From positions 1 to 64,000 of the forward strand of contig JAKSIJ010000004.1 in assembly GCA_024398875.1 (NCBI GenBank): a stretch of DNA of 64,000 nt, in the 5' to 3' direction. The stretch comes from Fibrobacter sp. GTDB lineage: Bacteria > Fibrobacterota > Fibrobacteria > Fibrobacterales > Fibrobacteraceae. The notes below the pieces were generated by a model. That model had not been told where the DNA came from, made no database searches, and worked only from the letters and a program-made list of their open reading frames with translations. Every line of letters starts with the position of its first letter. Positions within the stretch are counted from its first letter, which is position 1. The position numbers were made by a program, and so were the translations under genes. Shown here one piece after another: positions 18,257 to 45,282 of this stretch.

Positions 18257-18287
18257 CAAAGATAGATTAAAGGGGGGTGGTTGTAAA
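18257..18287 (-). promoter_or_regulatory. Promoter of tRNA-Leu
   Basis: On the minus strand TTTACA (18287-18282), 17 bases, then TATCTT (18264-18259), which continues as TATCTTTG. The predicted start is about 15 bases before the tRNA. TATCTTTG also matches the TAnnTTTG element of Bacteroidota promoters. Confidence 0.55.
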
Positions 18288-22636: not shown

Positions 22637-23257
22637 TTACAGGACTTTTTTCAGGAGCCAGAATTCTTCCTTGCCGGCGCGGTTCGGAAGGCTGTTTACT
22701 GCAGGAATGCGTTCCACCACATCGAACACGCCGCCCAGGCGAGCCATCAGTTCGCCTTCGCTTGTGGCATGGGGAGGTCCTTGAAGGGTTTTGCCGTTCA
22801 TCAGGGGGTACATGAGGGAAATCAGAAGGCCGTCGTCCTTCAGCATCTTGTAGCAGACTTCGAAGAATTCGTCGCGGCGGCCCGGATGGATAGCACTGAA
22901 GGTGCAGTAGTCGTACACGATGTCAAACTGTTGGCCGCCCCGTTTGGAATCCTTGGGGGAGAGGTTGAACAAATCCAAATCCAGAGAGCGGAGGTTCTTG
23001 TGCTTGCGGCTCAAGTGGTCCAGTTCATCCACGGCGGTAGGAGCAAAATCTACAGCCAGCACGTCGTGCCCACGCTTGGCCCAGGCTTCGGCATCATAGC
23101 CAAATCCGGCACCGGGAATCAACACAGATCCCGTCTTGGGGCATGAAGGATGATTGAAAAATTCAAGCAGGGCAGGAGTTGCCTTCTTGATGTTCCAGTA
23201 ATCCTTTCCATCGGCGTAAAGGTTGTCCCAGAATTCCGGGAGATTTTGCGTCAACAT
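22637..23257 (-). CDS. SAM-dependent methyltransferase, thiopurine methyltransferase-like
   Basis: 206 residues. Class I Rossmann methyltransferase: motif I VLIPGAGFGYDAE (about 46-58), the acidic residue after strand 2 in VLAVDFAP, and motif IV region FDIVYDYCTFSAI. The N-terminus LPEFWDNLYADGKDYWN and the DYCTF-AI segment resemble the TPMT family that methylates thiols, tellurite or selenium compounds in bacteria; the true substrate cannot be read from sequence. It overlaps rlmN by 7 bases, so both are probably on one mRNA. Confidence 0.82.
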   Translation of the reverse strand: MLTQNLPEFWDNLYADGKDYWNIKKATPALLEFFNHPSCPKTGSVLIPGAGFGYDAEAWAKRGHDVLAVDFAPTAVDELDHLSRKHKNLRSLDLDLFNLSPKDSKRGGQQFDIVYDYCTFSAIHPGRRDEFFEVCYKMLKDDGLLISLMYPLMNGKTLQGPPHATSEGELMARLGGVFDVVERIPAVNSLPNRAGKEEFWLLKKVL

Positions 23258-24324
23258 GTTTTACCTTCCTTTTTGTACGCTAACTGCCCGCAGGCGGCCA
23301 GAATGTCCCGGCCACGGGGGTTGCGAATCGTGATTTGAATTTCGGCAGCACGGACGGCTGCCAAAAAGTCTTCCACCTGCTCCGGCGTGGGAGCATGGAG
23401 TGTGGGGTCGTCCCCATCGTTTAGCACAATGGCGTTCACCTTTACCCGGCGAGGAGCGCAAATGCGTATGAGTTCCTTGGCGGCCTTTGGGGTGCAAGTG
23501 ATGTCTTGAATGAGGACGAACTCGAAAGTCACATAGTTATCGGTGCGGCGGATGTATTCGTCAACCGCTTCCAAGAGTTTCTCGATAGGCCAGGTCTTGT
23601 TCACCGGCATTACGGAAGAGCGATATTCGTTATTGGTGCTGTTGAGACTTACGGCCAGGCAGCAGGGAGTGTTCCGGTCCACCAGTTCCTTGATTTTGGG
23701 AACCACGCCGCTGGTGCTCACGGTCATGCGCTTTGCGCCCATGTTGAACAACTTCTGGTTGTGGAGGGTGCAGCACACGCGATGCACGTTTTCCAGATTG
23801 TTCAGCGGTTCGCCCATGCCCATGAAGATGATGTTCGTGACCTGGGCGATGTTACCCTCTTCATCGAGAATGCCGGCTTCTTTCAAGTGCCAGTTCACAT
23901 TGATGATTTCTTCCAGAATTTCACCGGCTTCCAGATTGCGGGTGAATCCCATCTTTGCGGTGCGGCAGAAGGCGCAGTTCATGGCACAGCCTACCTGCGT
24001 AGAAACGCAGACAGAAAAACGCCCGTTTGCAGGAATCATCACCGTCTCGATGTGGTGACCGTCCCAGGTTTCAAAAAGCCATTTGATGGTGCCGTCAACG
24101 CTTATGGATTTCTGGTCTTCCTTGAGGGCGCGAAGACTGAATTGCGCCGCCAATTTTTCGCGAAGTGCGGGGGAGATGTTCACCATCTCGTCGTAAGTTT
24201 TCACTTGCTGACAAAAAAGCCACTTCTGGATTTGATCAGCGCGGAAGGCCTTTTCATTAACGTCTCGGAGCCAAGCCTTCAGCTCGTCGGTGGTCAATGT
24301 CTTTATGTTACGCGGCCAATCCAT
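23251..24324 (-). CDS. rlmN: Dual-specificity rRNA/tRNA adenine-C2 methyltransferase RlmN
   Basis: 357 residues from the ATG at 24324 (MDWPRNIKTLT). Radical-SAM enzyme that methylates A2503 of 23S rRNA and A37 of some tRNAs. The [4Fe-4S] ligands are Cys113, Cys117 and Cys120 (CAMNCAFC). The two catalytic Cys equivalents are Cys106 (SVCVST) and the Cys in ILAACGQLA near the end. The MGMGEPLNN and SLNSTNNEYR blocks are present. The ORF could extend to 24516, but that region holds the PBP terminator and a promoter element, so the short form is preferred. A TATCTTTGC element sits 7-15 bases before this ATG, so the mRNA may be nearly leaderless. Confidence 0.95.
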   Translation of the reverse strand: MDWPRNIKTLTTDELKAWLRDVNEKAFRADQIQKWLFCQQVKTYDEMVNISPALREKLAAQFSLRALKEDQKSISVDGTIKWLFETWDGHHIETVMIPANGRFSVCVSTQVGCAMNCAFCRTAKMGFTRNLEAGEILEEIINVNWHLKEAGILDEEGNIAQVTNIIFMGMGEPLNNLENVHRVCCTLHNQKLFNMGAKRMTVSTSGVVPKIKELVDRNTPCCLAVSLNSTNNEYRSSVMPVNKTWPIEKLLEAVDEYIRRTDNYVTFEFVLIQDITCTPKAAKELIRICAPRRVKVNAIVLNDGDDPTLHAPTPEQVEDFLAAVRAAEIQITIRNPRGRDILAACGQLAYKKEGKTC

Positions 24325-24330
24325 AGTGGT

Positions 24331-24339
24331 GCAAAGATA
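24331..24339 (-). promoter_or_regulatory. rlmN: TAnnTTTGC promoter element of rlmN
   Basis: TATCTTTGC on the minus strand, placed between the PBP terminator hairpin and the rlmN ATG at 24324. In Bacteroidota this box is centred near -7, which would put the transcript start at or within a few bases of the ATG. No good -33 TTG is seen at the usual distance. Confidence 0.5.
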
Positions 24340-24340
24340 G

Positions 24341-24369
24341 CAAAAATGCCCCTTTTTGTTAAGGGCATA
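24341..24369 (-). terminator. Terminator of the class A PBP gene
   Basis: Minus strand: ATGCCCTT, loop AACAAA, then AAGGGGCAT with one bulge, followed by TTTTTG. It starts about 25 bases after the PBP stop. Confidence 0.75.
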
Positions 24370-24392
24370 TATTTGCACCAAAATCGTTGGAA

Positions 24393-26699
24393 TTAGAACA
24401 TTTTCCGCGTGGTTTTTGCACCAGCGGAGCTCTTGTTTTCGTTCATTCCCTTGTTGCTGAACAAGGTGGCGTCTTCTGCAGACTTTGTCTTCACTTCGAA
24501 GTGGTTGCCATCGCAAACTTCCGTAGGTGCATAGCCTGCAGAGTACAAGCAGTAAGTCTTTTCTGCGCAGAATTCACCGGCTACTTTTCCTGTATGGTTG
24601 CATACGCCACGGCTGGAAACTCCGCCGGGAACAGGGAAGGAAAGTCTTGGTAAATCCTTATGCAGTTCCTTCATTACCGCCATCCACAACGGGAGTGCGT
24701 CTTCGGTGCCGGTGTGGCCTGCGCCCATGGTGGCGGGGCTATCGGAACCTACCCAGACACCCATGGTGTATTGCTTCGTGAAGCCAATGTACCAGCAGTC
24801 GGTGTAGTCGTTAGTAGTTCCTGTTTTACCGCCACTGGGGTGAGTAAAACCGCTTGCCCAAACACGAGCGGCCGTACCGCGGACGTTCACGTCCTTCAGC
24901 ATGTCCACCATGATGTAGGCGGAAGCCGGACGCAACACTTCGTGTTCCACCTTCATGTTCTTCTCGATAACTTCGCCGTTCTTGTCTACGACAGACTCAA
25001 TCATGTAGGGCTCAATGCGCTGGCCTCCATTGGGGAACACGGTGTAGGCAGAAGTCATTTCCATCAGCGTTGCACCAACGGAACCAAGAGCAAGACTCGG
25101 CACAGGGAGAAGCGGAGCGCGGACAATACCGAATTTGCGGGCGTAGTTCACCACATTGTTGAGCCCGTACTTCATACCCGTCAAAATGGCAGGCAGGTTC
25201 TTGGAGCGGTACAGTGCGCGGCGGAGCGTCATCATGCCTTCAAAGTCGTTCTCGAAGTTGCCGGGGCGCCAGACTTTATTGGGGTTCTTGTCGTCCGGGT
25301 CGGGAATGGTCACAGGCTGGTCGTTCACGGAGTCGCAGGGACTTGCGCCGTTGTCCATGGCCGTAGAATAGACGATGGGTTTGAAAGAAGAACCAGGCTG
25401 CCGTAGGGATTGAACAGCTCTATTCCATTTGGATTTGTTAAAGTCGCTTCCGCCCACCATGGCGCGGATGGCGCCTGTCTCATTTTCAATGAGAATGGCT
25501 GCAATTTCGGGCTGATGATAAAGGATGCTATCCTGGAAGCGTCTCTTCTTCAGGTTGGAACTGGTATCGCTGGCCAGGTAGTCTTTTTTGAAGAGGGTGT
25601 AGACGCTATCGAAGTGGGCCACGATGCTGTCTTCGGGCATGTCGTATTTCTTGCTGAGGAACAGTCTGCGTGTGGCGCGGTACTTCACGCGTCTGCGGAC
25701 CTTCTCCACCTGGACTCTGGCGCAACTGTCAGCGTAGGCTTGGATTTCCGGATCGATGGTGCTGAAAATGGAAACGCCATCTGCATAGAGGGAATTTTCG
25801 CCATACTTCTTTTCCATGTACTTGCGGATTTCTTCGTAGAAGTAAAGACCTGCGTCGTTATCTTCTTCCTTTTCGACAAGCTTGATTGGGGTGTTCACGT
25901 ATTCGTGATATTGTTCTTTGGTGATGTAGCCCGCATCATACATGGCGAAAAGTACTGTATTGCGTCGTTCCAGGGAGGCTTCGGGGTGACGGTCCGGGCG
26001 GTAGGCCTCTGGGCGCTGGAGCATGCCTGCGAGAACGGCGTATTCGGGAATGGTAAGGCTATCGAGGGAGCGACCGAAGTAGAACTTGCCTGCGGCCTGG
26101 AAACCGTAGTTGCCGCCGGCCAGGTACACCTCGTTCATGTAGAACTCCAAAATTTCTTCCTTGGTGTAGGTCTGCTCGATGCGGATGGCCGTCATGGCTT
26201 CCTTAATCTTACGGGAAATGGAGCGCTCAGGTGTAAGGAACAAAAGTTTGGTCAACTGCTGGGTGAGGGTGGAGGCTCCGCGGAGTTTTTTACCGCTGGA
26301 AACGCTCTCCAAGATGGCGGAAGGAATGGCCCAGACGTTCATGCCCCAGTGGCTGAAAAAGGCCCTGTCTTCGGTGGCCATCACGGCATGGATGGCGTTG
26401 ATGGGCAGGGAATCGTAAGGGGTCCACTCACGGCGTTCAACGTAGTATTCGTGGGCGATTTTCCCGTTCATGTCATAAATGTTCGTCACCAGTTTCGGGT
26501 TGATTTGCTCCAACTGGGCGAGGGACGGAAGTTCGGGGAGAAAATGGTTGTAGGTGACAATGATGGCCGTAATTCCAAGTATTACGGGAATACCGAAAAT
26601 GACGGTCCACTTGACTACTTTTTTATCACTGAATAGCGCTTTTAGTTGGGTTAGGCACCAACGGAGCACTTTCAAAGCGATGATTTTGAATTTTTCCAT
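24393..26699 (-). CDS. mrcA: Class A penicillin-binding protein (PBP1A type)
   Basis: 768 residues. Bifunctional peptidoglycan synthase. One membrane anchor (about 31-50), then the GT51 glycosyltransferase domain with ATEDRAFFSHWG (catalytic Glu110) and RGASTLTQQL. A linker with basic stretches follows, then the transpeptidase domain with SxxK as SSFK (about 440), SKN, and KTGTT (about 620). The C-terminal extension has four Cys within about 35 residues (GVCNHTG, EFCAEKTYCLY, TEVCDG) and a Lys/Ser-rich tail. Cys in this part of an exported enzyme suggests disulfides. Monocistronic by its own promoter and terminator. Confidence 0.94.
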   Translation of the reverse strand: MEKFKIIALKVLRWCLTQLKALFSDKKVVKWTVIFGIPVILGITAIIVTYNHFLPELPSLAQLEQINPKLVTNIYDMNGKIAHEYYVERREWTPYDSLPINAIHAVMATEDRAFFSHWGMNVWAIPSAILESVSSGKKLRGASTLTQQLTKLLFLTPERSISRKIKEAMTAIRIEQTYTKEEILEFYMNEVYLAGGNYGFQAAGKFYFGRSLDSLTIPEYAVLAGMLQRPEAYRPDRHPEASLERRNTVLFAMYDAGYITKEQYHEYVNTPIKLVEKEEDNDAGLYFYEEIRKYMEKKYGENSLYADGVSIFSTIDPEIQAYADSCARVQVEKVRRRVKYRATRRLFLSKKYDMPEDSIVAHFDSVYTLFKKDYLASDTSSNLKKRRFQDSILYHQPEIAAILIENETGAIRAMVGGSDFNKSKWNRAVQSLRQPGSSFKPIVYSTAMDNGASPCDSVNDQPVTIPDPDDKNPNKVWRPGNFENDFEGMMTLRRALYRSKNLPAILTGMKYGLNNVVNYARKFGIVRAPLLPVPSLALGSVGATLMEMTSAYTVFPNGGQRIEPYMIESVVDKNGEVIEKNMKVEHEVLRPASAYIMVDMLKDVNVRGTAARVWASGFTHPSGGKTGTTNDYTDCWYIGFTKQYTMGVWVGSDSPATMGAGHTGTEDALPLWMAVMKELHKDLPRLSFPVPGGVSSRGVCNHTGKVAGEFCAEKTYCLYSAGYAPTEVCDGNHFEVKTKSAEDATLFSNKGMNENKSSAGAKTTRKMF

Positions 26700-26727: not shown

Positions 26728-26736
26728 GCAAATTTA
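26728..26736 (-). promoter_or_regulatory. mrcA: TAnnTTTGC promoter element of the PBP gene
   Basis: TAAATTTGC on the minus strand 29-37 bases upstream of the PBP start codon. It matches the -7 box TAnnTTTG seen at other starts here. The region between is AT-rich and gene-free. Confidence 0.5.
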
Positions 26737-26768: not shown

Positions 26769-26798
26769 TTGACAATAGACCCCCAAATGCTATATTTG
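26769..26798 (+). promoter_or_regulatory. Strong promoter of tRNA-Arg
   Basis: TTGACA at 26769-26774, 16 bases, TATATT at 26791-26796. It also reads as TTG-N19-TATATTTG, the Bacteroidota -33/-7 arrangement. The expected start is a few bases before the tRNA at 26811. Confidence 0.78.
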
Positions 26799-26810
26799 GG
26801 CACGAATCTA

Positions 26811-26884
<74 letters not shown>

Positions 26885-26921: not shown

Positions 26922-27045
26922 CTTTGGAAGTCGCGAACCTGGAGCCGCAACAGTGAGTGGCAAAATTTCGATGAATTTGCCTGAGAATGCCACGAACGGT
27001 CTCGTGATTGCTCCAGGTTCGAGAAGGTCCGGCACCCGCAGAAAG
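26922..27045 (+). repeat. Scrambled partial copies of the tRNA-Arg 3' end
   Basis: CGAACCTGGAGCC (26934-26946) is the reverse complement of tRNA positions 26856-26868. GCTCCAGGTTCGAG with GGCACCCGCAGAAA (27010-27044) is a direct, slightly altered copy of the tRNA 3' half. Between them, GTGGCA (26957-26962) and TGCCAC (26988-26993) form a nested inverted repeat. This 88-base structured stretch resembles recombination debris or an attachment-site remnant beside a tRNA. No integrase is nearby. Confidence 0.7.
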
Positions 27046-27617: not shown

Positions 27618-27641
27618 TGGCACGGAAATTGCTATTTTTGC
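27618..27641 (+). promoter_or_regulatory. Sigma-54-like promoter of groES-groEL, overlapped by a TAnnTTTG box
   Basis: TGGCAC-GGAAA-TTGCTA: GG at 27619-27620 and GC at 27631-27632 with exactly ten bases between, the -24/-12 sigma-54 pattern. TATTTTTGC at 27633-27641 also matches the TAnnTTTG box. The transcript would start near 27644, leaving a leader of about 75 bases. No CIRCE repeat (TTAGCACTC/GAGTGCTAA) is seen. Confidence 0.5.
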
Positions 27642-27718: not shown

Positions 27719-28000
27719 ATGATCAAGCCTTTAGCAGATCGAATCGTTGTAAAGCCGGCTGAAGCCGAACAGAAGACCTCTTCCGGTCTCTTTATTCCGG
27801 ATAACGCCAAGGAAAAGCCCATGCAGGGTAAGGTCGTGGCCGTGGGCCCCGGCCGCAAGACCGAATCTGGCGAAACGGTTGCCATGGAAGTCAAGGTGGG
27901 TGACGTGGTTCTGTACGGCAAGTACAGCGGCACCGAAGTGACTGTGGATGGCGAATCCTACCTCATCATCAAGGAATCCGACATCTTCGCCACACTGTAA
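27719..28000 (+). CDS. groES: Co-chaperonin GroES
   Basis: 93 residues from the ATG at 27719 ([13 protein letters not shown]). Seven copies cap the GroEL chamber. The mobile loop (about 17-34, [14 protein letters not shown]), the roof segment and the terminal [12 protein letters not shown] are standard. A GAGG ribosome site lies about 8 bases before the ATG; the frame is open further upstream, but that stretch holds the promoter. groEL follows 46 bases later. Confidence 0.97.
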
Positions 28001-36820: not shown

Positions 36821-36828
36821 TATCTTTG
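36821..36828 (+). promoter_or_regulatory. TAnnTTTG promoter element before the PorU-like gene
   Basis: TATCTTTG ends five bases before the GTG start at 36833. If used like the Bacteroidota -7 box, the mRNA begins at or almost at the start codon. No -33 TTG is seen at the usual spacing. Confidence 0.4.
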
Positions 36829-45274: not shown

Positions 45275-45282
45275 CAAAAATA
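45275..45282 (-). promoter_or_regulatory. TAnnTTTG promoter element of the FemAB-like gene
   Basis: TATTTTTG on the minus strand, 23-30 bases upstream of the ATG at 45252, in the 83-base divergent gap shared with the aminotransferase. No clear -33 element. Confidence 0.4.

Follow-up and report, generated by a model that had tools for sequence, protein, structure and literature searches.

A putative hybrid promoter of Fibrobacter sp. combines a TTGACA −35 element with a Bacteroidota-type TAnnTTTG box

The DNA analysed here (the window) comprises positions 1 to 64,000 of contig JAKSIJ010000004.1 of Fibrobacter sp., which belongs to a draft assembly (GCA_024398875.1) of 2.78 Mb in 90 contigs. 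ARAGORN places a tRNA-Arg gene (anticodon acg) at 26811..26884 on the plus strand. Upstream of this gene, a TTGACA hexamer (26769..26774, plus strand) is located 16 bp before the box TATATTTGG (26791..26799, plus strand; 25.0 bits with the matrix described below). When the box is placed at −12 to −5, as reported for TAnnTTTG in Flavobacterium psychrophilum (PMC9723704), the transcription start is predicted at about 26803. A preliminary description of the sequence had pointed to a TTG 19 bases upstream of the tRNA-Arg box, and it is indeed found at 26769-26771, with TATATTTG starting at 26791. The complete element, CTTGACA-ATAGACCCCCAAATG-CTATATTTGG, is one of the two best tRNA promoter matches of the genome (joint top score). 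Downstream of tRNA-Arg and its hairpin, in the region 26932-27043, part of the tRNA 3′ end is repeated (GCTCCAGGTTCGAG...GGCACCCGCAGAAA, about 27013-27043) and an inverted piece (GAACCTGGAGCCGC) is present, and both are possibly remnants of an integration event.

Boxes of the TAnnTTTG type had been described before seven genes of the window, and all seven are present at the reported positions and strands. The full two-part motif is seen at four of them (tRNA-Arg, tRNA-Leu, rlmN, PBP). For tRNA-Leu, alignment of the tRNA promoters identified TTTACA (18282..18287, minus strand) and a 17-bp spacer in front of the box TATCTTTG (18257..18264, minus strand; 19.7 bits). The tRNA-Arg and tRNA-Leu sites were part of the training set of the matrix. 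The rlmN box (24332..24339, minus strand; 17.1 bits) is likewise preceded by a 17-bp spacer and a −35-like TTAACA (24357..24362, minus strand). This box lies inside the longest rlmN open reading frame (23251-24516, minus strand; 421 aa, TTG start) and 7 nt before an ATG at 24324 that would yield 357 aa. Thus, the longest frame is over-extended at its 5′ end, and an almost leaderless rlmN mRNA is predicted. The box of the PBP gene, TAAATTTG (26729..26736, minus strand; 13.0 bits), follows a weak −35 element (TTTAAA) and is divergent from the tRNA-Arg promoter. The remaining three boxes lack a matching −35 element and remain candidates: TATTTTTG upstream of groES (27633..27640, plus strand; 4.6 bits; ATG at 27719), the same sequence upstream of the FemAB-like gene (45275..45282, minus strand; 7.2 bits; poor −35), and, as a weak candidate, the box of the PorU-like gene, 4 nt upstream of its GTG (36821..36828, plus strand; 1.4 bits), which is identical to those of tRNA-Leu and rlmN.

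Counted over the whole window, bare TAnnTTTG is not in excess (30 matches vs. 28.4 ± 5.2 in shuffled sequences), and more than half of these matches lie inside called genes, where they presumably occur by chance. The case for the box was therefore built on its position and on the rest of the genome. When the sequences upstream of all 45 tRNA genes were submitted to a de novo two-block EM search, which included random and neutral seeds among its starting points, the motif cTTGACA-N17-cTATATTTGG was recovered with a mixing weight of 0.88. TA..TTTG is present in 24 of the 45 upstream sequences (2.2 in shuffles, maximum 7). In the aligned tRNA promoters, conservation of the −35 element amounts to 85% for T−35, 82% for T−34, 73% for G−33, 80% for A−32, 65% for C−31, and 73% for A−30. 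The corresponding values for the downstream element are 89% (T−12), 94% (A−11), 92% (T−7), 87% (T−6), 85% (G−5), and 68% (G−4). At 15 of 30 tRNA-gene sites, a TTG is phased 22-23 nt upstream of the box, and ACA continues 9 of 16 TTG-phased sites.

Principal-sigma promoters of Bacteroidota (Bacteroides fragilis sigma-ABfr; Flavobacterium) carry TTTG at −33 and TAnnTTTG at −7 (PMC9723704, PMC7366714). Compared with this layout, the Fibrobacter element has the same box and a TTG in the same register, 22-23 nt before the TA. However, its tRNA genes carry a full TTGACA in place of the loose TTTG or TTG at −33. The suggestion in the preliminary description of a Bacteroidota-like promoter can thus be retained for the downstream half, which agrees with the −7 box in form and position, and has to be given up for the upstream half. 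Since tRNA genes have the complete TTGACA there, with the usual spacing of 17 bp, we call the promoter a hybrid, in which an E. coli-type front would be joined to the back half TATATTTG known from Bacteroidota.

An ordinary sigma-70 promoter (TTGACA/TATAAT), in which TTTG is AT-rich noise or the G+C-rich discriminator of a stable-RNA gene, would share several of these properties. The −35 element and the spacing (16-18 bp) of the tRNA promoters are canonical, T−12, A−11, and T−7 agree with the E. coli consensus TTGACA-17-TATAAT, and a few tRNA genes (L015, L028) carry TATAATTGG. In addition, TTGACA-N16..18-TATAAT exceeds its control in the genus (median 4 vs. 0 per genome). However, TATAAT is not preferred at −12 to −7 and T−6 and G−5 are strongly conserved, and tRNA promoters of the TATAAT type still have the TGG extension. 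Upstream of protein genes, little sense bias is seen for TATAAT (21 sense vs. 13 antisense and 18 mirrored), in contrast to TATATTTG (21 vs. 5 and 1); at the sequence level, TATAAT therefore does not take the place of the box. Finally, across 67 genomes of the genus Fibrobacter, TTGACA-N16..18-TAnnTTTG (median 19 per genome vs. 1 mirrored) is about five times as common as the TATAAT form, which has an equal number of fixed bases. Taken together, these data make an ordinary sigma-70 promoter unlikely.

For density statistics, about 840 kb of the genome (about 30%, window included) were sampled, and genes were called with a simple codon-usage caller. Here, we found that the motif is far from equally frequent inside and outside genes: TATATTTG is 17.8-fold and TAnnTTTG 4.3-fold denser in noncoding than in coding DNA, compared with 1.6-fold for the mirrored word GTTTnnAT. 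The complete TTGACA-N16..18-TAnnTTTG occurs six times outside called genes and never inside. Next to these counts, matches of at least 12 bits to the two-block matrix trained on the tRNA upstreams of the genome were scored against column-permuted matrices. With the tRNA loci masked, sense upstream DNA contains 38 such matches vs. 3.2 for permuted matrices (twelvefold), and coding DNA is not enriched (17 vs. 20.8). In 303 protein-gene upstreams, analysed without the tRNA data, TATATTTG is the 8-mer most over-represented relative to its own mirror (21 to 1). Among the 16 dinucleotides that may follow TA[ACT][ACT]TT, TG in sense orientation (69) exceeds both controls (35 antisense, 18 mirrored) by the widest margin, and TG is a real part of the signal.

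These data also bear on the idea that the box is no promoter element at all and reflects AT-rich composition, a feature of the tRNA 5′ leader, or a translation signal. The unremarkable count of the bare 8-mer over the window, the AT-richness of upstream DNA, and the boxes located just before ATGs would fit with it. However, neither mirrored words nor permuted matrices show the excess, at tRNA genes the box is in phase with the upstream TTG, and it precedes both tRNA and protein genes, the latter at many distances beyond the cluster of 4-8 nt described below. We consider this idea highly improbable, and the sequence data argue that TAnnTTTG is a genuine promoter element and forms the −10 half of the Fibrobacter promoter. 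In the literature searched, outside subscription journals, we found no start-site study of Fibrobacter.

Upstream of protein genes, the −35 consensus is weakly followed. A TTG at the right offset was found at 11 of 57 box sites, and ACA is not preferred behind it. For start codons, we surveyed ATGs that open frames of at least 80 codons and recorded their distance from the box in a sample of the same genome (L038-L077 and the window). At 28 of 161 sites, the start codon follows the box by 4-8 nt, compared with about 7 expected from neighbouring distances and none for the mirrored word. The cases are distributed as 7, 5, 8, 4, and 4 over distances of 4, 5, 6, 7, and 8 nt, and about 1.4 per position are seen further on. 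In the Bacteroidota loci examined, such an arrangement was present at 0 of 180 sites. The box matches the Bacteroidota-type element in sequence at tRNA and protein-gene upstreams alike, and its position relative to the start was derived solely from this ATG cluster. With the box at −12 to −5, an ATG 4-8 nt behind it would place the AUG at +1 to +5, and the cluster therefore predicts leaderless or near-leaderless mRNAs. On a per-genome basis, the median number of TATMTTTG-N4..6-ATG is 52 vs. 7 mirrored in the genus, 11 vs. 0 in families f2-f4, and 19.5 vs. 11 in the other classes of the phylum. The mirrored pattern controls for composition and not for enrichment of the box, so that the distance profile is the stronger evidence. 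For a second Fibrobacter genome (G023), 200 kb were sampled, which is too little for this purpose, and the signal was not reproduced (1 of 27 sites). Shine-Dalgarno-like sequences are present as well (109 of the 303 upstreams vs. 31 in a control stretch), and the organism thus appears to use leadered and leaderless starts alike.

The genome encodes four SigA-like sigma factors lacking region 1.1, plus more divergent sigmas. One of the four, SigA (locus L031, contig C1), is a 285-aa frame and the best-conserved sigma, with 90% identity in the genus, 53-63% in most other families of the phylum, and 47-63% to the best match outside the family, compared with about 40% for the paralogues. Judged by this conservation, L031 is the principal sigma factor. 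The sigA gene (L069:17972, minus strand) has TTGACG-17-CATATTTGG upstream of its ATG, which suggests that it is transcribed from the same promoter type. The three additional SigA-like genes without region 1.1 are L032, L033, and L034. In L033 and L034, WWIRQ is replaced by WWVKA and WWIKA, respectively; the −10 contact glutamine is lost by these changes, which suggest a different −10 specificity.

One of these paralogues, or another alternative sigma, might read the box instead of the principal sigma, and with four SigA-like genes in the genome the three paralogues could serve some sites. The weak −35 elements of mRNA promoters and the three of seven window sites lacking a −35 count against the reading, preferred below, of the full element as the principal (SigA) promoter. 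However, the genes preceded by the motif, most tRNA genes and sigA itself, are housekeeping genes. Moreover, the −10 contact glutamine is missing from L033 and L034, and in comparison with SigA the paralogues have long branches and much lower conservation. A paralogue as reader of the box is therefore improbable, slightly more so than an ordinary sigma-70 promoter. We infer that SigA reads the box; the parts of SigA proposed below as readers of TTTG are tentative candidates.

The preliminary description suggested that the main sigma factor reads a Bacteroidota-like promoter, and in sequence this factor resembles that of Bacteroidota in part. SigA shares with its Bacteroidota counterparts the short form without region 1.1 and the FISYAVWWIRQ segment, and its identities to the SigA proteins of Bacteroidota, Chlorobi, and Ignavibacteria range from 40 to 48%. 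However, region 1.2 reads LYFRD in Fibrobacterota vs. KYLQE in Bacteroidota, and region 2.4 reads RQ(S)IQKALFEQ vs. RQSILQALAEQ. Moreover, neither the organism nor its SigA belongs to Bacteroidota: Fibrobacter is placed in the phylum Fibrobacterota, and SigA of Fibrobacterota forms a clade of its own (support 100/99) with no settled placement relative to Bacteroidota SigA in the tree. The assembly contains no 16S gene, but among 80 genomes assigned to its genus, four carry exactly the 121 bp delimited by the qPCR primers published for F. succinogenes, and both primers are named together with this species in 51 papers. Relatives of its GroEL were matched at 72% at most and are scattered over the FCB groups. 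E. coli sigma-70 differs by possessing region 1.1 and by the segment KFSTYATWWIRQAIT, which is replaced by KFISYAVWWIRQSIQ in Fibrobacter. Region 2.3-2.4 contains KFISYAVWWIRQ in almost all compared SigA proteins and KFSTYATWWIRQ in E. coli-type sigmas. In regions 1.2, 2.1, 2.3-2.4, and 4.2, no residue cleanly separates users of TTTG from non-users. Chlorobiaceae have the Bacteroidota sigma residues, yet TA..TTTG precedes 1 of 20 of their tRNA genes. Since families without TTTG in their tRNA promoters have nearly the same residues in regions 1.2 and 2.4, these residues alone fail to explain TTTG.

Taken together, our preferred reading, to which we assign a probability of roughly 85%, is that the box makes up the downstream part of the promoter used by the principal sigma, SigA, of Fibrobacter. 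As a whole, this promoter comprises TTGACA, a spacer of 17 ± 1 bp, and TATATTTGG at −12 to −4. The E. coli sigma factor contacts, through its region 1.2, the second non-template base downstream of the hexamer, for which G is preferred. In Fibrobacter, SigA region 4.2 would bind TTGACA and region 2 would open TAnnTT, the equivalent of the −10 TATAAT. In the register of the Flavobacterium box, TAnnTT coincides with the usual −10 hexamer, which puts the next T and G at −6 and −5. In the single-stranded discriminator, SigA regions 2 and 1.2 would hold these two bases, and G−5 matches the region 1.2 contact of E. coli. The predicted start of transcription is about 5 nt downstream of the G of the box, and genes whose start codon follows the box by 4-8 nt would yield mRNAs with no leader or hardly any. 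In its simplest reading, TAnnTTTG may thus be regarded as a −10 hexamer with a fixed discriminator, which Fibrobacter pairs with a full −35, although the contact of sigma with T−6/G−5 is modelled on the E. coli case.

Outside the genus, the tRNA upstreams of families f2 and f3, which belong to the same class, yield TTGac-N16-CTAccTTTg. The other classes of Fibrobacterota yield TTGa and TATnTT, with no clear excess of TTTG; TTGACA-N16..18-TAnnTTTG has a median of 4 vs. 2 mirrored there (42 genomes), and several of these genomes (families f9, f11, f12, f13) contain 10-27 copies of TTGACA-N16..18-TATAAT vs. 0-5 in the control. In these classes, region 4.2 of SigA mostly reads RERVRL (L431, L433-L436), compared with RERVRQ in Fibrobacter, Bacteroidota, and E. 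coli-type sigmas, and in E. coli the variable position makes contact with the −35 element. RERVRL goes along with the shorter TTGa and no TTTG box, which is a correlation only. For Flavobacterium, the tRNA upstreams yield TATATTTGC; the box of Fibrobacter continues with G−4, whereas that of Flavobacterium (TATATTTGCA) continues with C. The tRNA promoters of one Ignavibacteriales genome (TTGAA-17-TAanTTTg) resemble those of Fibrobacter in combining TTGA with a TTTG-type box, but have AA instead of AC after TTG and a weaker G−5. One Chlorobiaceae genome gave TATATTt without the G, and no clear motif was seen in the tRNA upstreams of one Rhodothermales genome.

Most Bacteroidota genomes contain few copies of TTGACA-N16..18-TAnnTTTG, but a minority approaches the Fibrobacter numbers, and therefore the combination is not exclusive to Fibrobacter. 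Counts of 12-24 vs. 0-3 in controls were obtained for G186, G191, G201, G203, and G258, so that a full −35 may be in use in some Bacteroidota as well. Genome G230 carries a repeated family, TTGACAAG...CTTACCTTTG.

The comparison within the phylum can be read as a switch of the principal promoter type in Fibrobacterota. The class of Fibrobacter would use TTGAC...TAnnTTTG together with many leaderless or near-leaderless mRNAs, and the other classes TTGa...TATnTT/TATAAT, mostly with RERVRL for RERVRQ among the sampled sigmas. We advance this scenario tentatively and consider it somewhat less probable than its opposite.

The TAnnTTTG promoter is usually regarded as a peculiarity of Bacteroidota and as the reason why E. 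coli promoters fail there. If the switch of promoter type took place, Fibrobacter would represent an intermediate in which the Bacteroidota −7 box is compatible with a full −35, and the two peculiarities of Bacteroidota would be separable and have arisen or been lost independently. A Bacteroidota box joined to an intact TTGACA would also be a natural intermediate for tracing the sigma residues that read T−6/G−5. The predicted leaderless mRNAs bear on translation initiation in the Fibrobacter group. In practical terms, the consensus may help to predict start sites and to build expression tools for Fibrobacter, which is important as a cellulose degrader in the rumen.
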